A stretch of 64,000 bases of DNA from a virus. The stretch covers positions 157,644 through 221,643 of IMG/VR virus record IMGVR_UViG_3300026292_000003; one strand, given 5' to 3'. The notes beneath the pieces are model-generated. The model searched no databases, was not told the origin of the DNA, and worked only from the letters and a program-made list of their open reading frames with translations. The translations under genes were made by a program, and so were the position numbers. Shown in pieces: positions 4,617-63,114 of the stretch (positions are counted from its first letter, which is position 1; each line of letters starts with the position of its first letter).

Positions 4617-4636
4617 AAAATTAATCCACAATTCGG

Positions 4637-4664
4637 TTGACAATTAAACTTTTACGTGTATAAA
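4637..4664 (+). promoter_or_regulatory. Sigma70 promoter for tmRNA
   Basis: TTGACA (4637-4642), 16-bp spacer, TATAAA (4659-4664). It sits directly before the tmRNA acceptor piece. Confidence 0.8.
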
Positions 4665-4671
4665 TATACAA

Positions 4672-4733
4672 GTAAGCGATGAAGCGACTTAACGGTAGAC
4701 TGGACCTCGGGGCAGTACCGAGCAGGTCCACCA
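4672..4733 (+). ncRNA. ssrA: Permuted tmRNA, acceptor (3') piece
   Basis: In permuted two-piece tmRNA the acceptor half is transcribed first. Here a T-arm (CTCGG 4706-4710, 7-base loop, CCGAG 4718-4722) is followed at once by CAGGTCC (4723-4729), discriminator A and encoded CCA (4731-4733). CAGGTCC pairs over seven positions, one of them G-U, with GGGCCTG at 4802-4808, rebuilding the alanyl-tRNA-like acceptor stem across the two pieces. The 5' end is approximate, set from the promoter. Confidence 0.85.
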
Positions 4734-4801
4734 TAAACACTTTGTAGTTACCAGAACTAGATGGTACCCTAAAGTAAGGACAGACGCAGAGTGTTTATGA
4801 T
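4734..4801 (+). other. tmRNA intervening segment with closing inverted repeat
   Basis: The spacer between the two tmRNA pieces is bounded by a perfect 9-bp inverted repeat (ATAAACACT 4733-4741, AGTGTTTAT 4790-4798). The repeat would bring the CCA end and the start of the coding piece together in the precursor. Removal by host tRNA-processing enzymes is expected from known permuted tmRNAs. Confidence 0.7.
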
Positions 4802-4984
4802 GGGCCTGAATTAGGATCGACAGATATTATAGGGAAGTGGAGTTTACCGGGTGATTGCGTAATTGATCAAATTTTATAAACGCAGAAGATAATTTTGCAA
4901 TAGCGGCCTAATTTAGGCACGTAGGGGTGGGAACTACCTGGCAACAGAAGTGCCACTGTATTCTTTAGAATTCAGTTACTACAA
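4802..4984 (+). ncRNA. ssrA: Permuted tmRNA, coding (5') piece, tag AEDNFAIAA
   Basis: Starts with GGGCCTGAATTAGGATCGAC, which matches the conserved tmRNA 5' end. A short frame at 4882-4911 (GCA resume codon to TAA) encodes AEDNFAIAA, ending in the Ala-Ala required by ClpXP/ClpAP. Downstream, GGCAC/GTGCC (near 4915 and 4952) encloses further complementary bases, as expected for pseudoknots. The 3' end is approximate. It releases stalled ribosomes and tags incomplete proteins; the A-x-D-N-x-A pattern resembles alphaproteobacterial tags. Confidence 0.85.
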
Positions 4985-5005
4985 AAAGATAAACTTCTTA
5001 TCTTT
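4985..5005 (+). terminator. Hairpin after tmRNA
   Basis: AAAGATAA (4985-4992) and TTATCTTT (4998-5005) form an 8-bp AT-rich stem with a 5-base loop. There is no long U-run, so it may be a processing stem or weak terminator rather than a full intrinsic terminator. Confidence 0.45.
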
Positions 5006-12294: not shown

Positions 12295-13482
12295 TTGACT
12301 CAGAATAATCACAGCACTAGTTGGTGTCCTATACCGTTTAATGCTATTTCGTTTCACCCAACCGGCAATTTAACTCGTTGTATGATGAGCAATACGCCGA
12401 TGGGTGAAACCTTTGACAGCCCTCAGATGCAAAAACTGCGTCATGATATGTTGGCTGGCACCTGGGATAAAGAAGGGTGTATGACTTGTTGGAAAAAAGA
12501 ACAACAAGGTAATATAAGTCAAAGACAAAAGTGGTTACAACGTAGTCCCTCAGATTTCAAAAATACAGATGGATTTATAAAACCAAAAATAACAGGAAAC
12601 CCTGTTAATCACCTTTTTATTAACTATAGCAATATATGTAATTTTAAGTGTAGAATGTGTGGACCAGATTATAGTACTAGTCTAATACCAGAGCATAAAC
12701 ATTTACATACAATAGGATTACGTAAAGAAGTAAAAATAGAAAATATTAAAAATAGAAATTTTATTAATACATATCTAAAAGAAAATCCAGAAAGTTTAAA
12801 AGATGTAACTAGTATATGGATAACAGGTGGCGAACCCTTTATGGACGATAACTGTTATGATTTAATTGACATACTAGCTGAAAATGGAAATGAATTTGAA
12901 ACAGATATGGTTATTACTACAAATGGCTCTAAAGTAGATTTAGATAAGTTACAAAAATTTGAGAATTTAAAATTCTTTGAATTAGATTTAAGTATTGATG
13001 CACCTAATACTATGTTTGAGTATATGCGTAGTGCAGGCGTATTTACTTGGGATCAAATGAGTAAGTTAATTGATGATTTAACTTATTTTAAAAAACAGAA
13101 TAGTAGTTGGTTTCATATGTGTTTTAATGCTAGTATACAAGCATATAATTACGATACAATACTTGAATTTGATTCAGTATGTAGGAAAGCAGGAGCATTG
13201 AACAATACTAGAATGTTAATATTTCCAGAACATTTTAGACTCAACGTACTACCTTATAAATATAGAAAAGAACAATTTGATAAAATCTATGATTATAAAG
13301 TAGTAAATGATCCAAGGTTTAAAAGAACTCATATGGATATATGCAAAAATCTTTTACAAGAACAAGCAAATGAAACTGTAATCAGTAGATTTAAAGAACT
13401 TACGATAGCACAAGACAAGTATAGAAAAATGTCTATAAAAGACTTCCATCCACGGTTAGCGGAGTTTATATATGAAAAATAA
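12295..13482 (+). CDS. Radical SAM protein with N-terminal SPASM/twitch-like Cys domain (copy 1)
   Basis: 395 residues from a TTG start. The N-terminus carries SWCPIPFNAISFHPTGN, a second Cys (29) and GCMTC (62, 65), a likely auxiliary Fe-S cluster site. The radical SAM motif CNFKCRMC uses Cys115, 119 and 122. GGEPF (S-adenosylmethionine amino-group binding) and TTNGSK follow. SPASM/twitch enzymes usually modify peptides; here the auxiliary domain precedes the barrel. It overlaps its tandem paralogue by 11 bases. Target unknown. Confidence 0.8.
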   Translation: MTQNNHSTSWCPIPFNAISFHPTGNLTRCMMSNTPMGETFDSPQMQKLRHDMLAGTWDKEGCMTCWKKEQQGNISQRQKWLQRSPSDFKNTDGFIKPKITGNPVNHLFINYSNICNFKCRMCGPDYSTSLIPEHKHLHTIGLRKEVKIENIKNRNFINTYLKENPESLKDVTSIWITGGEPFMDDNCYDLIDILAENGNEFETDMVITTNGSKVDLDKLQKFENLKFFELDLSIDAPNTMFEYMRSAGVFTWDQMSKLIDDLTYFKKQNSSWFHMCFNASIQAYNYDTILEFDSVCRKAGALNNTRMLIFPEHFRLNVLPYKYRKEQFDKIYDYKVVNDPRFKRTHMDICKNLLQEQANETVISRFKELTIAQDKYRKMSIKDFHPRLAEFIYEK

Positions 13483-14785
13483 TCAAAATGAAAACGGCTT
13501 ATGGAGATTTGATCCAAAAAAGCACGTAGTTCCTGCTGACCAAATAGAAACAAAAGTAGTTGAAAACGATCAATGGAAAAATATACACAGTAACAGTTGG
13601 TGTCCAATTCCGTTTAATACAATAAGCTGGCATCCTAGTGGGCATATATCAAGATGTATGATGAGTGACGACAATATGGGAACTCATTATGACAGTGAAC
13701 ATATGCAAAGGTTAAGAAGAGATATGTTAGCTGGTAAGTGGGATACTTATGGATGTACTAGCTGTCTTAACAAAGAAAAGAAAGGTTATCGTAGTCAACG
13801 TATGAGTTGGCTAAGACATGATAAGATTAAGCATCTAGGAAATCCAGAACCTTATCGTAATCCAAAATTAACCGGTAATCAGATAAGTCATTTGTTTATT
13901 AATTTTTCAAATGTATGTAATTTTAAATGTAGAATGTGTAGTGCAAACTTTAGTAATAGTTTGATACCTGAAAACAAGCATATGTTAGAAAAATTTCCAC
14001 TTGAATATAAAAAGGTTCCACTTCAGAATCAAAAAAACTTTAATGATATTATTGGATATTTAGAAAAGAACTTAGACATACTACCTGGTATAAAAAGTAT
14101 TTGGATGACAGGAGGAGAGCCCTTCATGACTGATGATCCATACAAACTGATTGACTTAATTGTAGAACACGGCAAGCCAGAAGAACTTGATATAGTTATT
14201 ACTACAAATGGATCAAAATTAGATTTTGAAAAGTTAGAAAAGTTTAACAAAGTTAAAAAATTAACATTAGATTTAAGTATTGATGCAGTAGGACCTTTGT
14301 TTGAATATATGAGAAGTAATAAGGTTTATACTTGGAGTCAAATGGAAAATACTTGTGGTAAATTATATGAATATAAAAAAGTAAATAAGAAATGGTTTGA
14401 TTTTTTTATTAATAGCAGTTACCAAATATTTAATTATGATAACTTATTAGAATTTTACGATTTTATATATGATCATAAATGTGAAAGTAATATAAGAATG
14501 TTAATGTTTCCTGAACATTTTAGAGTGGGTAACTTGCCAAAAGTATTTAAAGATGAAGCTAGAGCAATGTGTGATAAGATAGAATTAAGGTATGGAAATA
14601 GAAATGTACATAAGATTAAAATTCTAGATGATATTAGAACTGCATTAGATATTGAAGAACCTTACTTACATAGAACTTTAAGAGTAGTACCAGAACAAGA
14701 TAAATTTAGAGGAGTATACTTAACTGACTATCACGATAAACTAGCTGACTTAATATATGGACCAAAACAATTATGCCTGTTTTAA
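13472..14785 (+). CDS. Radical SAM protein with N-terminal SPASM/twitch-like Cys domain (copy 2)
   Basis: 437 residues, tandem paralogue of the previous gene with an extra 40-residue N-terminus. It repeats SWCPIPFNTISWHPSG, SRCMMS, GCTSC, then CNFKCRMC, GGEPFM and TTNGSK. The two differ mainly in the C-terminal third, where the substrate normally binds, so they may act on related but different targets or on two sites of one target. Cotranscribed with the endolysin and the P-loop-like gene behind it. Confidence 0.8.
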   Translation: MKNNQNENGLWRFDPKKHVVPADQIETKVVENDQWKNIHSNSWCPIPFNTISWHPSGHISRCMMSDDNMGTHYDSEHMQRLRRDMLAGKWDTYGCTSCLNKEKKGYRSQRMSWLRHDKIKHLGNPEPYRNPKLTGNQISHLFINFSNVCNFKCRMCSANFSNSLIPENKHMLEKFPLEYKKVPLQNQKNFNDIIGYLEKNLDILPGIKSIWMTGGEPFMTDDPYKLIDLIVEHGKPEELDIVITTNGSKLDFEKLEKFNKVKKLTLDLSIDAVGPLFEYMRSNKVYTWSQMENTCGKLYEYKKVNKKWFDFFINSSYQIFNYDNLLEFYDFIYDHKCESNIRMLMFPEHFRVGNLPKVFKDEARAMCDKIELRYGNRNVHKIKILDDIRTALDIEEPYLHRTLRVVPEQDKFRGVYLTDYHDKLADLIYGPKQLCLF

Positions 14786-27162: not shown

Positions 27163-28071
27163 ATGATATCTAAAAACGACTTTGTCGTACTTACAGAAGA
27201 CGGACAAATCAAATCAACACAAACTCATTTCCTTATTAAGAATAATCTTACAGATTTTATAAGATGGGATTGCGAAGTATTTTCACACACAAAGAATATC
27301 AATTCACAAACTGGTAAAACAGGTTACACAGCCTGTGGTAATAAATCTACAACTTGTAACGTAGGAATATGCTCGTGTCCTACTGATATATATTTGCCTA
27401 AAGGTTTAAACGAGCATTGGCTTTTTTTATTAAGAGAAAAAGTTAGAAAATTATCTACAAATGACATATTAGATAGTTACCAATTAGAAGATGGTAAAAT
27501 TGTTGCTTGTGGTCAACTAGGATTATTAGTTAATACAAAATTTGTAGTAGACTGGAACTTATTAAGAAGATGTAATTTTTCTTGTACCTATTGTGCTCCA
27601 GATATACACAGTTATACAAGTGAGTTTCCACCTTTTGAACAATTACAAAAAGAATTTAATGATATAAAAATTCCACAAGGTAAAGAAGCATATTTTAACC
27701 TAAATGGTGGTGAACCAACATTACACCCAAATATATTTGACATAGTAAAAATGTGTTACAATGTTGGACACGTAGAACTATTATCAAATGGAACTGCTTC
27801 AGTTTCAATGTATAATGATTTACTTGATTATACTAAAATTAATATAAGTTTACACCACGAATTAATTAACGAAAAACATATGAAAAAATTTGTTAAAATA
27901 GCTGAATTAAATAAAGGTGAATTAGTGTTTAAATACTTTAATACATTTGACGAAGAAAAATACAAAGAATACTTGGATAAATTATCAACATTTAACCATG
28001 TATCAATTATTACCAACAAACGTCTTATCTTACGTGGTCAACGTAACCAAGATAAATCTTGGGCAACATAG
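27163..28071 (+). CDS. Radical SAM enzyme, divergent type
   Basis: 302 residues. The radical SAM motif CNFSCTYC lies mid-protein (about residue 137), followed by NGGEPTLHP and LLSNGTAS. The N-terminus has its own Cys-rich patch (ACGNKSTTCNVGICSCP), possibly an auxiliary cluster or zinc site. This architecture differs from the other five radical SAM proteins in the window. It starts one base after the RyR-domain gene. Substrate unknown. Confidence 0.75.
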   Translation: MISKNDFVVLTEDGQIKSTQTHFLIKNNLTDFIRWDCEVFSHTKNINSQTGKTGYTACGNKSTTCNVGICSCPTDIYLPKGLNEHWLFLLREKVRKLSTNDILDSYQLEDGKIVACGQLGLLVNTKFVVDWNLLRRCNFSCTYCAPDIHSYTSEFPPFEQLQKEFNDIKIPQGKEAYFNLNGGEPTLHPNIFDIVKMCYNVGHVELLSNGTASVSMYNDLLDYTKINISLHHELINEKHMKKFVKIAELNKGELVFKYFNTFDEEKYKEYLDKLSTFNHVSIITNKRLILRGQRNQDKSWAT

Positions 28072-34950: not shown

Positions 34951-36129
34951 ATGCCAGAAAAATACTGCATATACACGAATAATTTCACCTTTGTAGACAA
35001 TGATGGCTATGTTGCGTTATGTTGTAAGAACTTAAAAAACAAACTAACACAATATCATATCAAAGATTACAAATTAAGCGAAATATGGAATAGCCCAGAA
35101 ATGCATTCCGTAAGGCAAGAAATTGCCAGCGGAGGAGAACCTATGGGTTGTTTTAAATGTTATGATCCAGAACGTGATGGTGTACGTAGTTTTAGACAAA
35201 AAGCATTAGGTATGATTAACAAAGGTGTACCCTTTGAAGATGAAAAAATACACGCATTAGATTTAAGACTAGGTAATGTATGCAACTTAAGATGTGTAAT
35301 GTGTTTCGCTGGTAATAGTAACAAAATTTTAAAAGATCATAAGCAAATGGCAGACCATTTTAAATGGAAAGAAGGTCGCCTAGAAAAAGAAGCAGAAAAG
35401 TATCACAAAAGCAATTATGACTGGAGTGATGATGAAAGAGCCTGGGAAAACATTATTACCAGTGTAGATAAAAATTTAAAACACGTTTACCTAGCAGGTG
35501 GTGAACCATTTTACTTAAAAAACTTTCCAACAACTGTAGAACGTTTAGGTACACTAGCACCAGATGCTAGATTTGTTATTAACTCAAACGGTACAAGACT
35601 ATTAAGAGAAAAAGATCTAAAACAACTGAAAAAGGTTGAGAATGTATTCATTAGATTTAGTGTTGACGGTTGGGGTGGTGCAGATGAATGGATTAGACAA
35701 GATACAAAATGGGAAGAAAAACTACAAGTAATGGATCAATATTACAAACACTTTAAATTAAGAGTTTGGGATATTACTGCAAATAGTTTAGGTGTTAGAC
35801 AAATACCAAAGCTAATAGAATATCTTTGGGAGCATTATCCTGAAGCAAAAGTACAAATTAGACCCGTAGTTAATAAGACAGAAATATTAATGGAAAATAT
35901 TCCTGATAGACTAAAAGCAAAGCCTTTGGAATTCTTTGAGAAACACAAAAATAAACTTGAAGGTGTTGATCATGTAATTAACGAGATGCGTAAACCATTC
36001 AATCCAGATCCTAACAGAGCAAAAACAGTTAAGCATTGGGTTGATTACTACGATAATACCGGCGTAGTAAAACTAGGTGACTTTGATCCAGAGCTTTCAG
36101 ATTGGATTCAAAGTAATGGGCAACAATAA
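34951..36129 (+). CDS. Radical SAM protein with N-terminal SPASM/twitch-like Cys domain (copy 3)
   Basis: 392 residues. N-terminal Cys set YCIYTNNFTF, ALCCKN and GCFKC, then CNLRCVMC, LAGGEPFY and INSNGT. Same order as copies 1 and 2 but distant in sequence. It has its own early-type promoter with almost no leader and overlaps copy 4 by 14 bases. Interrupts an otherwise late array, so it is expressed separately from the surrounding head-type genes. Confidence 0.8.
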   Translation: MPEKYCIYTNNFTFVDNDGYVALCCKNLKNKLTQYHIKDYKLSEIWNSPEMHSVRQEIASGGEPMGCFKCYDPERDGVRSFRQKALGMINKGVPFEDEKIHALDLRLGNVCNLRCVMCFAGNSNKILKDHKQMADHFKWKEGRLEKEAEKYHKSNYDWSDDERAWENIITSVDKNLKHVYLAGGEPFYLKNFPTTVERLGTLAPDARFVINSNGTRLLREKDLKQLKKVENVFIRFSVDGWGGADEWIRQDTKWEEKLQVMDQYYKHFKLRVWDITANSLGVRQIPKLIEYLWEHYPEAKVQIRPVVNKTEILMENIPDRLKAKPLEFFEKHKNKLEGVDHVINEMRKPFNPDPNRAKTVKHWVDYYDNTGVVKLGDFDPELSDWIQSNGQQ

Positions 36130-37333
36130 TTTTTGTAGTATACCTTGGATACATTCAGCAACTAAAACAAATGGTGCTAGTAGAGTATGTTGTTTGATGA
36201 GCAACTACGAACAAGGTAATGGCGGTCAAACAGGACATAACTTCAAAACAGATACTATAGAAGAAATACACAATAGCGAATATACTCGTAATCTTCGTAA
36301 GAAGTTTTTAAAGGGTTATAAACCAATTGAATGTAATACGTGTTGGGTTAAAGAGAAGAATGGTGGACAAAGTAGACGTATGTTTACTAATAAAATGTAC
36401 AAGCATTTAATTGACTATGAGAAAGCATTAAAGATCACAAAAGAAGATGGCAGTACAGATCAAATGCCAGTATATTGGGATTTACGTTTTGGTAACTTAT
36501 GTAATCTAAAGTGTGTTATGTGTGGACCACAAAGTAGCAGTATGTGGTATAAAGATTGGGCTCATATGTATGATACGGATCATTTTGAAGATTCAGGAGA
36601 AAAAATATTTTTTAAAGATAAAGGGGTTGACAGTAACGTATACGATTGGTATACAAGTAGCAACTTCTGGGAGCAAATGGAAAAGAATATAGATCAGCTA
36701 GAACATATATACCTAGTTGGTGGCGAGCCTATGCTTATTGAACAACATTATATATTTTTACAAAAGCTAATAGATAAAGGCGTAAGTCAAAATGTTACAT
36801 TGGAATATGATACAAATATTACTAACGTACACCAACGTGCTATTGAGCAATGGAGTAAGTTTAAAACATTAATGTTAAGAGTAAGTATAGATGATTATGG
36901 AGAACAAAATGATTATATACGTTTTCCTAGCAAATGGTATAAGTTAGATGAGAACATTAAACGTATTAAAGAATTAGTACCAAATACAAAAGTTGAAATA
37001 AGTATAACTTGGCAAATGCTTAATGCATATACATTTTTAAATTTAGTAGAGCATTTTAAAGATTACTTTATTAATATTAGAATATTGTCTGCACCAGAGA
37101 TATTTGATCCAAAACACTTACCAAAACAGGCTAAATTAGAGCTTATTGATATGTACAATAGTTCTGTACATAAAGATAAACTAAAGCATCTAATAAGCTA
37201 TCTAACAAATAACTTAAATAATAATAGATTATTATACCAAGAATCAGCAGATTTTCTAAATAGGCTAGATGTATTAAGAGGTACAGATTGGCCCAAAACG
37301 TTCAAGCAACTGCATAAATCGATAAATATATAA
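36116..37333 (+). CDS. Radical SAM protein with N-terminal SPASM/twitch-like Cys domain (copy 4)
   Basis: 405 residues from ATG 36116. N-terminal FCSIPWIHS, VCCLM and CNTC; then CNLKCVMC, LVGGEPML and TNITN. The C-SxPW signature near the start is shared with copies 1, 2 and 5. Coupled by overlap to copy 3, so the pair probably works on one substrate. Substrate unknown. Confidence 0.8.
   Translation: MGNNNFCSIPWIHSATKTNGASRVCCLMSNYEQGNGGQTGHNFKTDTIEEIHNSEYTRNLRKKFLKGYKPIECNTCWVKEKNGGQSRRMFTNKMYKHLIDYEKALKITKEDGSTDQMPVYWDLRFGNLCNLKCVMCGPQSSSMWYKDWAHMYDTDHFEDSGEKIFFKDKGVDSNVYDWYTSSNFWEQMEKNIDQLEHIYLVGGEPMLIEQHYIFLQKLIDKGVSQNVTLEYDTNITNVHQRAIEQWSKFKTLMLRVSIDDYGEQNDYIRFPSKWYKLDENIKRIKELVPNTKVEISITWQMLNAYTFLNLVEHFKDYFINIRILSAPEIFDPKHLPKQAKLELIDMYNSSVHKDKLKHLISYLTNNLNNNRLLYQESADFLNRLDVLRGTDWPKTFKQLHKSINI
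37321..37328 (+). promoter_or_regulatory. Late promoter GATAAATA
   Basis: Overlaps the end of radical SAM copy 4; leader AAAAGGAG before ATG 37347. Restarts the late array. Confidence 0.7.
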
Positions 37334-50672: not shown

Positions 50673-51926
50673 GTGCAACAAAAAGATACCGCTTATATTC
50701 CTACTTCTGAAAATACATGGTGTGTCAGTCCTTGGACTGAGATTCATATTGATCAAGAAGGTGAGATGGTATTTTGCTGTCAAGCTAAAGACGTAGTAGG
50801 AAACGTCAAAACAGATAAAATCAAAGATATCTTTAATGGCATTGAATACAAAAAAGCCAGACAAATGACATTAACTAATGTCTGGCCTAAAGGATGCCAT
50901 TTATGTGAAAGAGCAGAAAAGGTTGTTAACCGAAGTATGCGATATCAACAACAAGAAACATATGACGGTAATTTAAATCCTGTAATACCAGACATTACAA
51001 AAAACTACAAAATACAAAAGTTTAAAATTGATTTCAGTAATCAATGTAATTTAAGATGTACGATGTGTGGTCCTAATAGAAGTACTGGCTGGTTCAAAGA
51101 TGCTAAAATGCTTATGAACTCTGACCTTACTAGAAAAGAAGTAGGTAGAGCAGTATACATTCAGCAAAAAGATGATACACTTCCATACAGTATAGAAAAT
51201 TATGGAATTCCTAGTAGTGTTGTAGATGATAATTTAGATGTTATATTAGATACCAAATTGATTGATATAAGTGGTGGAGAACCTTTTTATACGCCACAGT
51301 TCAAATATCTAGTAGATAAACTAGTAGAGCATAATTACAAAGGAAGATTAAAAGTTATTACAAATCTAACATTGTTAGATAAAGAGTATGTAGAAAAATT
51401 AAAAAATATTGATACAACATTAATTGTTAGTATGGACGCCGTTGGCGATTTATACGAATACGTGAGACCTAGTACACCATTTGGAAAATACAAAGGCAAA
51501 GATATACAAAACAAGATTATTGAATTAAAACACGATCACGGTTTTGATATGTCAATAAGTTATACACCACAACTGTTTAATGTATATAACATACAAGATT
51601 ATTTAGATTGGTTACAATTTGCTAAATTAGGATTGAAAAGTGAGTTTATGTTTAATGGACCTGTTGTTCATCCCAGATATTTAACTATAGCGGTACACCC
51701 AGATATGGATTACAAAATGAGACTTGCAGAAAGACTTGAAAAAGATTTTGGTAAAACTAATAGGTTAGATGGAATAATTAACCTATGTAAGAAACCAAGA
51801 GACGAAGAAGAATTAGACAACTGGAAGTTCTTCTGTAAAATCACAGAAATGCTTGACAAACATAGAAAAACAAGTATACTAAACTATATTCCGCAATTAG
51901 AAAAATACTGGGTTAAAAACGTATGA
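50673..51926 (+). CDS. Radical SAM protein with N-terminal SPASM/twitch-like Cys domain (copy 5)
   Basis: 417 residues from a GTG start. TWCVSPWTEIHIDQEG, VFCCQA and GCHLC form the N-terminal Cys set; then CNLRCTMC, ISGGEPFY and ITNLT. Same architecture as copies 1-4. Sandwiched between dsbA and DNA polymerase, overlapping the latter by 4 bases, so it is made with the replication genes. Substrate unknown. Confidence 0.8.
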   Translation: MQQKDTAYIPTSENTWCVSPWTEIHIDQEGEMVFCCQAKDVVGNVKTDKIKDIFNGIEYKKARQMTLTNVWPKGCHLCERAEKVVNRSMRYQQQETYDGNLNPVIPDITKNYKIQKFKIDFSNQCNLRCTMCGPNRSTGWFKDAKMLMNSDLTRKEVGRAVYIQQKDDTLPYSIENYGIPSSVVDDNLDVILDTKLIDISGGEPFYTPQFKYLVDKLVEHNYKGRLKVITNLTLLDKEYVEKLKNIDTTLIVSMDAVGDLYEYVRPSTPFGKYKGKDIQNKIIELKHDHGFDMSISYTPQLFNVYNIQDYLDWLQFAKLGLKSEFMFNGPVVHPRYLTIAVHPDMDYKMRLAERLEKDFGKTNRLDGIINLCKKPRDEEELDNWKFFCKITEMLDKHRKTSILNYIPQLEKYWVKNV

Positions 51927-59384: not shown

Positions 59385-60166
59385 ATCCATTTAATAAATG
59401 GTTAGATGAACATAGAAGTATGGGAGGCTATGTAGCTTCTTCATATGTTAATTGGGATATACTAGCTGACCCAGGCGATGATATAGTAAAACTACTAGAA
59501 CAATTCAAAGACCTTCCATTTGATGCAGTAATGGAATTTGCTGAAGCAGATAGATTTGATAATGAAATGGGTTATAGAGATATCTGTGAAGATGCTAGTA
59601 AGTTATTCTTTTTAACAGAGCTAGTGCAATTTAATGAACTATTATATTGCCCACAAATTATACACGAGCCATGGTTTGATAGATATAGAGTGCATCCAGG
59701 TAGTGGAAGATTACAGGCACTTTGGTTATGTGGCTATAACAGTATAAAATGTATATACACACATTTTAATGAACCTGAATTTATTCCACCAGGAGATTGT
59801 TTTGAAATAATAAACAAACGTCAGTTTGATAAAGAAATAATGTTAAGACCAGATCCTATTAAATGGCATTTTGAAGTGTACGAAGCTTTTCCAAAAGAAA
59901 AACAAGAACAAGTATGGACCAAACGTAGGGATAGAGAATGGGAGTGGCATCATACAGAAACAGATAAACCTTGGAAGTTTATGAGGTTTAGTGAAGGTCC
60001 TGATTTTGCACATCATAAAAAGTTATGGAGAAGTTATGCTATTGATGGTTGGCAAGACTTACAACACGATCATATACAAATAGGATCAACAGTTTTTGAG
60101 TTTAATAATAAAGGTAAAGTAAGTAACGTTAAAAGATTTAAAAATATTGGATCAAAATCTTACTAG
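59375..60166 (+). CDS. Unknown protein with HPG-x2-RL-x-A-x-W motif (paralogue of 7262-7951)
   Basis: 263 residues. HEPWFDRYRVHPGSGRLQAL and a later FNEPEFIPPGDCFEI. Shares the HPG-RL-A-W signature with the minus-strand protein at 7262-7951. Rich in Trp/Tyr/His. Cotranslated with the SGNH-like hydrolase and convergent with the minus-strand cassette. No known fold identified. Confidence 0.55.
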   Translation: MRVDPFNKWLDEHRSMGGYVASSYVNWDILADPGDDIVKLLEQFKDLPFDAVMEFAEADRFDNEMGYRDICEDASKLFFLTELVQFNELLYCPQIIHEPWFDRYRVHPGSGRLQALWLCGYNSIKCIYTHFNEPEFIPPGDCFEIINKRQFDKEIMLRPDPIKWHFEVYEAFPKEKQEQVWTKRRDREWEWHHTETDKPWKFMRFSEGPDFAHHKKLWRSYAIDGWQDLQHDHIQIGSTVFEFNNKGKVSNVKRFKNIGSKSY

Positions 60167-60867
60167 AAGTTCAAATACGAAATAGTAACATCATGCTTTA
60201 ATCCCATAAGTGGATCTTTACTATCCCATCTATATCCTTCTAAATGTTTTATATGATTATCAAGTGGTGTGTCTGGTAATGGATTTAAATTCCATTTATT
60301 TTTAAAATGTCCTAGACTTGCAATGTGAGTATCTAGCCCATATTCCCATATAGTCTTTCTAGCTAAAAATACTTCTTCTTTTAATTTCTCTTTTCCATAC
60401 TCGTTGTTTTTATAAAATTCTTTATAGTGTGGATATGGAGTATCTGGTCCGCCTACACTAGTCCACCCAGCAAAACAACCCTCAGGTGGTCTTGTTACAA
60501 TACAAAATTTACTTTCTGGAAATGTATCAATCATCCAATCTATGTTGTATATAAATTGATGGCATCTAACAATATATGTCATAGCAGGATCCCATACAGG
60601 CCATGCTTGAATTATTTCTTCAAATATATCATCTTTTGACATTGTGTTAATGTTATGGAAATTTTTTCCTAGTTCATTACCAGGACCAAAGTAAACACCT
60701 GTATGACGAACATTACCCCATTTGGTATCGTGTTTCAATAGTCTTTCAGGAGTTCTATCTCCTTTGTCAACTTTAAGTTCTGGTATTTCACTTAATACAT
60801 AACTTACTGCACTCCATTTACTACCAGGAGCACCAGTCATCCAAATTACGTTACTGAAGTCTTTCAT
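60163..60867 (-). CDS. Sulfotransferase-like P-loop protein (a)
   Basis: 234 residues, ribosome site AAAGGTGG. VIWMTGAPGSKWSAVSYVLS is a strand-loop-helix with Gly-Ala-Pro-Gly-Ser-Lys, close to a sulfotransferase PAPS loop. SKFCIVTRPPEGCFAGW fits the 3'-phosphate-binding R-P region. The best sulfotransferase candidate of the window. Last gene of the late minus-strand cassette; overlaps the preceding gene by 17 bases. Confidence 0.55.
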   Translation of the reverse strand: MKDFSNVIWMTGAPGSKWSAVSYVLSEIPELKVDKGDRTPERLLKHDTKWGNVRHTGVYFGPGNELGKNFHNINTMSKDDIFEEIIQAWPVWDPAMTYIVRCHQFIYNIDWMIDTFPESKFCIVTRPPEGCFAGWTSVGGPDTPYPHYKEFYKNNEYGKEKLKEEVFLARKTIWEYGLDTHIASLGHFKNKWNLNPLPDTPLDNHIKHLEGYRWDSKDPLMGLKHDVTISYLNF

Positions 60868-61618
60868 TAAGCCACCTTTTGATTTCTTTATAATCTATAT
60901 CTAATGTAGTATTTAAAACACGTTCGTGGTTAACTGTTTTTCTAAAAACACTATTTGAGAACATTTTAGCATATACTTCTTTGGTAAGCATTGGCTCGTA
61001 TTTGTCTTGCCAAAACTTTTTCTTTCTTTCAAATGCCCAAACATCTGCTAGTGTTAAATCTTCTTTTCTACCTTTTAATATTTCTAAGTATTTTAAATAT
61101 TTGTTATCTTCTGGAACTATTCCTTTGTGTCTTACATATGCTGGAAACTCTTTTACTATTTCCATCCATCTTTTTGTTGTTTGTTTAGGATCGTGCAATA
61201 TATTAATAATTAATGCATTAGGAAAATGTTCTAATATTTTACTTGGCATAGTATGAGTACAATAAATTACTCTTTGATCATTATCAAATATATCTTGTCC
61301 ACCATTTTCTACAAACAACTTATCAAACATTTTATAATATTGTTTTTCGTTAGGTATATACTTTTCTACATAATCATGTGTAGGTGGAAGTTTACCTTTG
61401 GGTGTAATTCTATCAAAATGGAATCTGCTTAATTTACGTTGTCTAATATGTTTATCTACTATACCTACGTTCCAAGGATTAATTCCATTCTCTTTACAAC
61501 TATACCAATACATACAAGGCATTGTTGCTAACACTCTAGCTAACTTGTGGCCACTAGCACCTTGTTCAAAACTAATGAATATCCATTTGTCTTTTTCTTT
61601 ACGAACTTTGTCTGCCAT
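60851..61618 (-). CDS. Sulfotransferase-like protein (b)
   Basis: 255 residues from ATG 61618; an ATG at 61636 is also possible. KWIFISFEQGASGHKLARVL has a P-loop-like Glu-Gln-Gly-Ala-Ser-Gly-His-Lys. ALIINILHDPKQTTKRW resembles the R-D/H-D-P 3'-phosphate region of sulfotransferases. A helical C-terminus ends LNERLQ. Donor and acceptor unknown. Confidence 0.5.
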   Translation of the reverse strand: MADKVRKEKDKWIFISFEQGASGHKLARVLATMPCMYWYSCKENGINPWNVGIVDKHIRQRKLSRFHFDRITPKGKLPPTHDYVEKYIPNEKQYYKMFDKLFVENGGQDIFDNDQRVIYCTHTMPSKILEHFPNALIINILHDPKQTTKRWMEIVKEFPAYVRHKGIVPEDNKYLKYLEILKGRKEDLTLADVWAFERKKKFWQDKYEPMLTKEVYAKMFSNSVFRKTVNHERVLNTTLDIDYKEIKRWLNERLQ

Positions 61619-62297
61619 AATACCAATACCTTTCATTGTGGAATTTAACTACATCTCCGGTAGCAAACCACTCGTCGTATACACATATGTCACCTTTGAC
61701 ATATAATTCATCTTCTACAATTTTTGTTTCTGCAAATACTTCATTACCCATTAATGTACAAGTCCTGCCATCTATGTCTAAGTCTTCTGCTTCTGCATTT
61801 GAAGGTGTAAATGTTTCGTTAATAGCTACAGGGCCAACTTCACTCATACCCCAATTTGCTATAAACGTACAACCCTTGTCTACAAACTTATTAATTATAC
61901 TAGCTGGAACTCTATCACTACCACAAGCAATAATCTTTCCGGTTAGATCTATATCAGCCCAACTTTTAGTTCTTGTAATTGCTTCTGCCATACCAGGTGT
62001 TAAATGACTGTGAGTAAAATCTTTAATACTACTGACCCACTTAAATGGGTTAAATGATTCTATATGAACTTGTGCCTTTACTTCTATAGCAGGTAATGTT
62101 TGTGCAAATAACCCACCTGCATGATCCATACTGCATACAGTATAAACTTTGCTATCTTTAGTAATCATCTGTACATCCCTAGCCACTTTGTTTGCTGACT
62201 TAATTTTATCAACAGGTTGATGTATAGGTTTACTAGGACCGGTTGTGCCACTAGTATAAATTGTTGTACCTTCATTTAGAATCTTTATTAAGTTCAT
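61599..62297 (-). CDS. Minimal ANL-superfamily (AMP-binding) core
   Basis: 232 residues, under half a normal acyl-CoA synthetase or adenylation domain. Motif A3 YTSGTTGPSK (14-23), A5 NWGMSE (148-153) and A7 FATGDVV with YGR (211-229) are intact. The N-terminal subdomain of about 150-180 residues and the C-terminal lid with the catalytic A10 Lys are missing. It may bind ATP and an acid but needs a partner for a full reaction, or it does something else. Overlaps both neighbours. Confidence 0.75.
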   Translation of the reverse strand: MNLIKILNEGTTIYTSGTTGPSKPIHQPVDKIKSANKVARDVQMITKDSKVYTVCSMDHAGGLFAQTLPAIEVKAQVHIESFNPFKWVSSIKDFTHSHLTPGMAEAITRTKSWADIDLTGKIIACGSDRVPASIINKFVDKGCTFIANWGMSEVGPVAINETFTPSNAEAEDLDIDGRTCTLMGNEVFAETKIVEDELYVKGDICVYDEWFATGDVVKFHNERYWYYGRQSS

Positions 62298-62562
62298 CTT
62301 TCAATTTTTTCCAATCTGGATGTTGTGGCAAATATTTGTGTAAACCTATTGCCTGGTTAATAACCATTTCTAATAATTTAAAATTAAATAGTGGTGGAAA
62401 TATACCATGTATAATACTAGCAAACGCCATGAATAATTGTTGACCTGCCGCTTTAAATGCAATATACAGATGTATAAAATAATGTATCACAGGATTCTTT
62501 TTTGGTCTTTTATTTAAAGAATCTGCTACTCCTAAATGTTTCCAATCAAACCATTGTTTCAT
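62272..62562 (-). CDS. DUF6356-like membrane protein
   Basis: 96 residues. VIHYFIHLYIAFKAAGQQLF, then MAFASIIHGIFPPLF resembles DUF6356-type proteins (H-x5-A-x2-HAxFPFLF). One or two membrane helices, His-rich ends. Probably anchors the cassette at the membrane. Overlaps the GNAT-like gene by 17 bases and the ANL gene by 26. Confidence 0.6.
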   Translation of the reverse strand: MKQWFDWKHLGVADSLNKRPKKNPVIHYFIHLYIAFKAAGQQLFMAFASIIHGIFPPLFNFKLLEMVINQAIGLHKYLPQHPDWKKLKDELNKDSK

Positions 62563-63058
62563 AATACTTTTCTATGTTAAGTTTCCATACTGATTGACGT
62601 TGTCCGTATATTTCTTCTTCAGTAAAGAAATCAACTACTCCTTGTTTTTCTAATAAATGAAATAGTTTATCTGTTCTATTCATTTTTCCACTTGCATCAT
62701 TTTCTACGTTTGTAGTAATATATGCAGGTTGTTTATCTGAGCTTCCTGCCCATTTTAATTGTTCTGGTAATATCCATTTCCACGGAATACTAGTCATATG
62801 TTTTTTACTTAATCCGTGTTGAGCAGGCATAGTTTGAACTCCTCTAAAAAGCATTCTATGTCCATCATGAAACTTATGACAACCTGCCATTGCAACTATA
62901 ATATCGTTATGATAAGCCGCCCACCATTCACCTTGGTGTTTTTTACACCAATCGTATTTCATTGCTTCTAAGTTGGCATTATTAAGGTAGCCCATATCTT
63001 CGCAGATATAACCAAAGAATTCTATATCTCTTTTTCCAGGATCTATTTTTACTAGCAT
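62546..63058 (-). CDS. GNAT-like protein, first gene of minus-strand cassette
   Basis: 170 residues. EWWAAYHNDIIVAMAGCHKF, then RMLFRGVQTMPAQH and PAYITTNVENDASGKMNRTD, and KLFHLLEKQGVVDF; the order fits phage GNAT proteins. The acetyl-CoA loop is not canonical, so activity is uncertain. Late promoter on the minus strand at 63082-63089. Confidence 0.5.
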   Translation of the reverse strand: MLVKIDPGKRDIEFFGYICEDMGYLNNANLEAMKYDWCKKHQGEWWAAYHNDIIVAMAGCHKFHDGHRMLFRGVQTMPAQHGLSKKHMTSIPWKWILPEQLKWAGSSDKQPAYITTNVENDASGKMNRTDKLFHLLEKQGVVDFFTEEEIYGQRQSVWKLNIEKYYETMV

Positions 63059-63081
63059 TGTTCTATAATTATATACATACT

Positions 63082-63089
63082 TATTTATC
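63082..63089 (-). promoter_or_regulatory. Late promoter GATAAATA (minus strand)
   Basis: 23 bases before ATG 63058; drives the five-gene cassette down to 60163. Confidence 0.7.
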
Positions 63090-63114
63090 TGTCAATGATT
63101 GATTGACATTATGT

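Follow-up and report, generated by a model that had tools for sequence, protein, structure and literature searches.

A conserved phage gene cassette around a lidless adenylate-forming core: a possible acyl-activation-and-transfer module

Five overlapping genes near the end of a large phage record may make up a conserved acyl-activation-and-transfer module, in which a membrane-docked, lidless adenylate-forming (ANL) core feeds a P-loop transferase and a GNAT of atypical type. We give this reading a substantial chance that falls short of an even one. The stretch of DNA analysed, here called the window, is the terminal 64 kb of a virus record of 221,643 bases. Its genes are of phage type (DNA polymerase, PhoH, endolysin), and its DNA polymerase is nearest to those of the jumbo phages Phosso, Atu_ph07, GAP32 and CBB (45-48% identity). 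The window also has about six radical-SAM-like ORFs on the plus strand (12295-14785, 27163-28071, 34951-37333 and 50673-51926), one of them confirmed by PHROG.

All five cassette genes lie on the minus strand at 60163-63058. The unit begins with a GNAT-like gene (62546-63058; 170 aa), assigned from the ORF call, AlphaFold and Foldseek. It is followed by a gene for a small DUF6356-like membrane protein (62272-62562; 96 aa) and by the lidless adenylate-forming core, or mini-ANL (61599-62297; 232 aa; PF00501, AlphaFold and Foldseek). The last two genes are ST1, a P-loop-like transferase with the motif FEQGAxGH (60851-61636; 261 aa) that was defined by its neighbourhood family and a GNAT fusion, and ST2, a sulfotransferase-like protein with a TGAPGSKWS loop (60163-60867; 234 aa) whose family matches PF13469 weakly. 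Successive ORFs overlap by 17, 26, 38 and 17 nt, in agreement with the preliminary description of this DNA and in support of its proposal that they form one transcription and translation unit. It is not certain where ST1 starts: from an in-frame ATG further on, the 38-nt overlap would shrink to about 20 nt, as in L003. Chance overlap of ORFs was ruled out because the same gene set surrounds ANL in tens of diverged contigs.

A sigma70-type promoter (TTGACA-N16-TATAAT; 63068-63095, minus strand; 12/12 match) lies 9 nt upstream of the GNAT start, and its hexamers and spacing are identical in L003, L011-L015 and L079. Within its spacer, at 63082-63089, is the T4-late-like GATAAATA, which is enriched in the window (15 sites against 7.7 expected). 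Many GATAAATA sites stand directly 5' of plus-strand genes as a T4-late-like promoter box. The cassette had been called late; that label is doubtful because a perfect, conserved sigma70-type promoter heads it, though GATAAATA sits in the spacer. Judged from the two elements together, expression may be early, late or both.

Mini-ANL matched PF00501 with an E value of 5.6e-14, but over no more of the 384-position profile than 168-377, which leaves it with neither N-subdomain nor lid. The protein begins about 15 residues ahead of motif A3 and stops at A8, with A3 at S16-G20/K23, A4 at H59-G62, A5 at N148-E153, A7 at T213-D215 and A8 at R229. Set against feruloyl-CoA synthetase (491 aa), it is missing the lid and some ~138 residues at the N-terminus. 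AlphaFold predicted a confident stand-alone core fold (pLDDT 92.7), for which the best Foldseek match was MenE (E 7e-14). Profile span and alignment thus agree with the original description of a 232-residue core that has A3, A5 and A7 and neither an N-subdomain nor the lid lysine.

This architecture is common to a whole family. Clustering 129 mini-ANL sequences at 93% identity left 79 representatives (56 from viruses, 23 from cells). Every one is 214-265 aa long, and the medians are 18 residues before the A3 serine and 2 after the A8 arginine. S16, G17, H59, E153 and D215 are each present in 79/79, R229 in 78/79 and K23 in 75/79; overall, A3, A4, A5, the A7 Asp and the A8 Arg are conserved at ~95-100%. 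The A10 lysine of the lid is missing from every member. The conserved motifs and shared ends indicate that the nucleotide site has been kept and the lid consistently left out. dN/dS for mini-ANL is ~0.07-0.24; between the window and L003 dN/dS, approximate since the genes overlap, was 0.10/0.43 for ANL and lower for its partners, at 0.04/0.73 for DUF6356, 0.05/0.45 for GNAT and 0.05/0.44 for ST1. By these sequence comparisons, the mini-ANL family is old and evolves under purifying selection, in phages as well as in bacteria. A pseudogene, or a recent truncation absent from other phages, was ruled out by 79 relatives of the same architecture, invariant motifs and low dN/dS.

The partners named at the outset proved to be the commonest companions of ANL in the 56 viral neighbourhoods. 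GNAT (50/56) and ST1 (43/56) were the most frequent gene families after ANL, followed by DUF6356 (33/56) and ST2 (27/56). Counted by position (same strand, no more than 3 kb from ANL), with shorter ORFs and near-copies also taken in, the figures were 49/56 for GNAT, 40/56 for ST1 and 36/56 for DUF6356. The usual order is GNAT-DUF6356-ANL-ST1 or ANL-GNAT-ST1. Immediately 3' of ANL in L115 and L117, ST1 and GNAT are fused into one protein of 417 aa (ST1 at 1-242, GNAT at 244-416). Some neighbourhoods hold additional genes: TctA/TctC tricarboxylate-type transporter genes were assigned by eye in 17/56 (L004-L037 contigs), as were glycine-betaine-type ABC transporter genes in the same phage contigs.

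The GNAT-like gene was weak by sequence (E 0.024), with no PHROG family, and its fold was confirmed by an AlphaFold model (pLDDT 87.9) that matched GNATs in Foldseek (E 1.8e-5); the assignment is one of modelled fold alone. None of 85 family members has the consensus CoA P-loop [QR]xxGx[GA]. Although Q/RxxGxG/A is the GNAT CoA-loop consensus, some active GNATs have atypical P-loops (PMC4964394), and the missing loop is therefore no proof of a donor other than CoA.

The DUF6356-like protein passes the curated PF19883 score by a narrow margin (24.5 bits; cut-off 24.4) and has a hydrophobic segment, which bears out its naming as a DUF6356-like membrane protein. Among the representatives, its gene is the immediate upstream neighbour of ANL, usually overlapping it, in 30/56 from viruses and 13/23 from cells. 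The link between the two is strengthened by a second phage ANL, full-length at 452 aa, that also adjoins a DUF6356 gene, amid DNA-metabolism genes (G008; L141:5540-7127). DUF6356 occurs away from ANL too in ANL-carrying phages, including the present record, and its role is therefore probably that of a general membrane adaptor.

Of the two proteins that had been called sulfotransferase-like, ST2 partly deserves the name: 4/11 members of its family match PF13469 (Sulfotransfer_3; best E 2.5e-4), the window copy falls below the cut-off, and a sub-threshold sulfotransferase is plausible. For ST1 the name barely holds, with 1/14 family members matching a Pfam sulfotransferase (E 0.0044) and a resemblance to ST2 over the loop only. 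Neither ST1 nor ST2 had a meaningful match among solved structures. Further sulfotransferase-like ORFs were seen by eye in the window at 14773 and 49514. The fatty acid desaturase reported on the opposite strand is present, divergent to the cassette and one gene away, though incomplete (63466 to the contig end, plus strand; NF049918, 1.2e-8). Its proposed partnership did not stand: the family numbers 11 among the loci and adjoins ANL in the closest relatives only, and we rejected it as a module member.

Cellular carriers of mini-ANL were found in SAR11 (Pelagibacteraceae), Methylophilaceae, Gammaproteobacteria and small-genome marine MAGs. The DUF6356-ANL pair is kept in 15/23 cellular representatives, where it lies among unrelated genes; several other copies have no DUF6356 nearby. 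GNAT or ST1 was near the cellular ANL in 0/23, and no GNAT homologue was found in five ANL-carrying cellular genomes, in a search that had no positive control. ANL can apparently work without these partners, given the copies without GNAT and ST1 and, in several cases, without DUF6356 nearby. Among SAR11 relatives ANL was present in 2/147 genomes, one being the query genome itself, and this rarity makes it an accessory gene there. Cells and viruses interleave in the ANL tree with at least six label changes, and the SAR11, Methylophilaceae and guaA-linked MAG clades each adjoin viral clades. Such interleaving of sequences indicates repeated exchange of mini-ANL between phages and cells. The window also encodes a permuted tmRNA of alphaproteobacterial type (4617-5002, plus strand; RF04321, 98 bits; RF01849, 97 bits; tag AEDNFAIAA). 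All four of the other large phage records examined (G006-G009), and the SAR11 genome too, likewise have a permuted tmRNA, which suggests that the phage hosts are alphaproteobacterial.

In the acyl-activation module that we propose, mini-ANL would bind ATP or AMP and a carboxylate and would form or hold an acyl-adenylate without the usual lid, while the small DUF6356 protein would dock it at the membrane. The GNAT, which has no usual CoA pyrophosphate loop, would pass the acyl group, once activated, to an amine or an acceptor like it, and ST1, with ST2 where present, would contribute one more P-loop-transferase reaction, for example sulfation. In favour stand the retained nucleotide-contact motifs, the purifying selection, the recurrent GNAT and ST1 neighbours, the ST1-GNAT fusion, the DUF6356-ANL adjacency and a confident core fold that matches acyl-CoA ligases. 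Counted against this reading are the absence of the A10 lysine and of ~138 N-terminal residues, and the cellular copies that have no GNAT or ST1 nearby. In known ANLs the A10 lid lysine contacts the alpha-phosphate in adenylation and the lid rotates for thioesterification (PMC8388817), so a lidless core could not thioesterify in the usual way. Adenylation itself would be possible, because an N-terminal fragment of firefly luciferase without the C-terminal domain retains some activity (PMC12064465). Its constant partnership with a GNAT of atypical type suggests GNAT, in place of CoA, as the recipient of the acyl group. A more specific version, in which mini-ANL is a new lidless adenylating branch with family-specific His and Cys residues and a membrane partner and passes its acyl-adenylate to a CoA-independent GNAT, is decidedly unlikely. 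A lipid or small-molecule pathway, as first suggested, is plausible.

The main rival is a non-catalytic role, in which mini-ANL would sense or hold an acid, AMP or an acyl-AMP and act as a regulator of, or scaffold for, its partners. It would fit the loss of the lid lysine in every member and the variable A7 glycine (G in 48/79, then K, H and R). The family signature of C55, H96, H98 and NWGM[ST]E, in which H96 is invariant, H98 and C55 are near-invariant and Trp replaces the A5 Tyr, could be a ligand site. However, conservation of the catalytic A3 loop, the A5 Glu and the A7 Asp (~95-100%) goes beyond what the binding of nucleotide by itself usually requires, and we consider this role rather unlikely.

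We also think it unlikely that the module, instead of making a free metabolite or lipid, yields products that modify the virion or host surface by way of acyl and sulfate groups on glycans or fibres. Its frequent neighbours, assigned partly by eye, include genes for dioxygenases and methyltransferases and others resembling sulfotransferases and glycosyltransferases, yet there is no consistent link to fibre genes, and the unrelated surroundings of the cellular DUF6356-ANL pair do not fit.

Mini-ANL could instead be half of a split enzyme whose lid or N-subdomain comes in trans from a different protein of the phage or host. Full ANL enzymes are numerous in hosts, and fuller ANLs are also present in some of the related phages (c25, c32, G007 and G008). 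These are not consistent neighbours, however, the c25 type occurring in 6/56 viral mini-ANL neighbourhoods, and no lid domain (AMP-binding_C, PF13193) was found in the window's own record, which may be incomplete, or in 5/6 other phage records. We regard a split enzyme as very unlikely.

Pat-type acetyltransferases acylate lysines of acyl-CoA synthetases. Acylation of host ANL lysines by the GNAT, with mini-ANL as decoy or adaptor and the module shutting or redirecting host acid activation, draws on known GNAT-ANL regulation via the A10 lysine (PMC8388817) and on the constant GNAT-ANL pairing, but seems most improbable given that mini-ANL has no target lysine, the GNAT has no consensus CoA loop, and both ST1 and the cellular DUF6356-ANL pair are left unexplained.

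Among 50,697 phage records there was no homologue of GNAT or ST1; cultured-phage homologues were limited to two weak ones for ANL (~27% identity, in unannotated gut records) and two weak ones for ST2. Open-licence papers, in which absence is weak evidence, yielded nothing on what DUF6356 does, on this combination of genes, on comparable marine phage modules or on a family of lidless ANLs, in keeping with the initial impression that the pathway had not been described. If mini-ANL is active, few adenylate-forming enzymes would be smaller, and it would test directly whether the lid is dispensable. Should the acyl-activation reading and its more specific version be true, a lidless ANL with a CoA-independent GNAT would constitute a CoA-free route of acyl transfer spread by ocean phages. 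Since mini-ANL is common to large uncultured ocean phages, some SAR11, methylotrophs and Gammaproteobacteria, it points to undescribed chemistry in abundant microbes. In mini-ANL, moreover, the unannotated DUF6356 family gains a partner.

Compared with ANL acyl- and aryl-CoA ligases (PF00501; MenE, FadD and feruloyl-CoA synthetase), mini-ANL shares the core fold, motifs A3-A5-A7-A8 and the acyl-pocket region, whereas the N-terminal ~138 residues, the C-terminal lid and the A10 Lys are absent. Because of the missing lid and lysine, we treat it as a core-only relative and do not class it as an acyl-CoA ligase. The cassette GNAT has the fold of GNAT acyltransferases (PF00583) and differs in its family's lack of the consensus CoA P-loop. 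ST2 resembles PF13469 sulfotransferases in its loop and RxP region through weak, below-cut-off matches, while ST1 is essentially without a family. With DUF6356 proteins (PF19883) the phage protein shares the small hydrophobic type, an IHxxxPxxF segment and a score over or near the cut-off; it differs in its coupling to ANL. Viral flavin halogenases have been reported from cyanophages, and such phage-borne tailoring genes are likewise found in large marine phages; a tryptophan-halogenase-like gene (PF04820, E 4e-58; e.g. L004:8759-9832) even sits inside the module, between GNAT and DUF6356-ANL, in L004-L007 and L010. Tailoring genes differ from the mini-ANL module in gene set, and we know of no phage example that has this one. 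The module presents an ANL core whose architecture and context are new.
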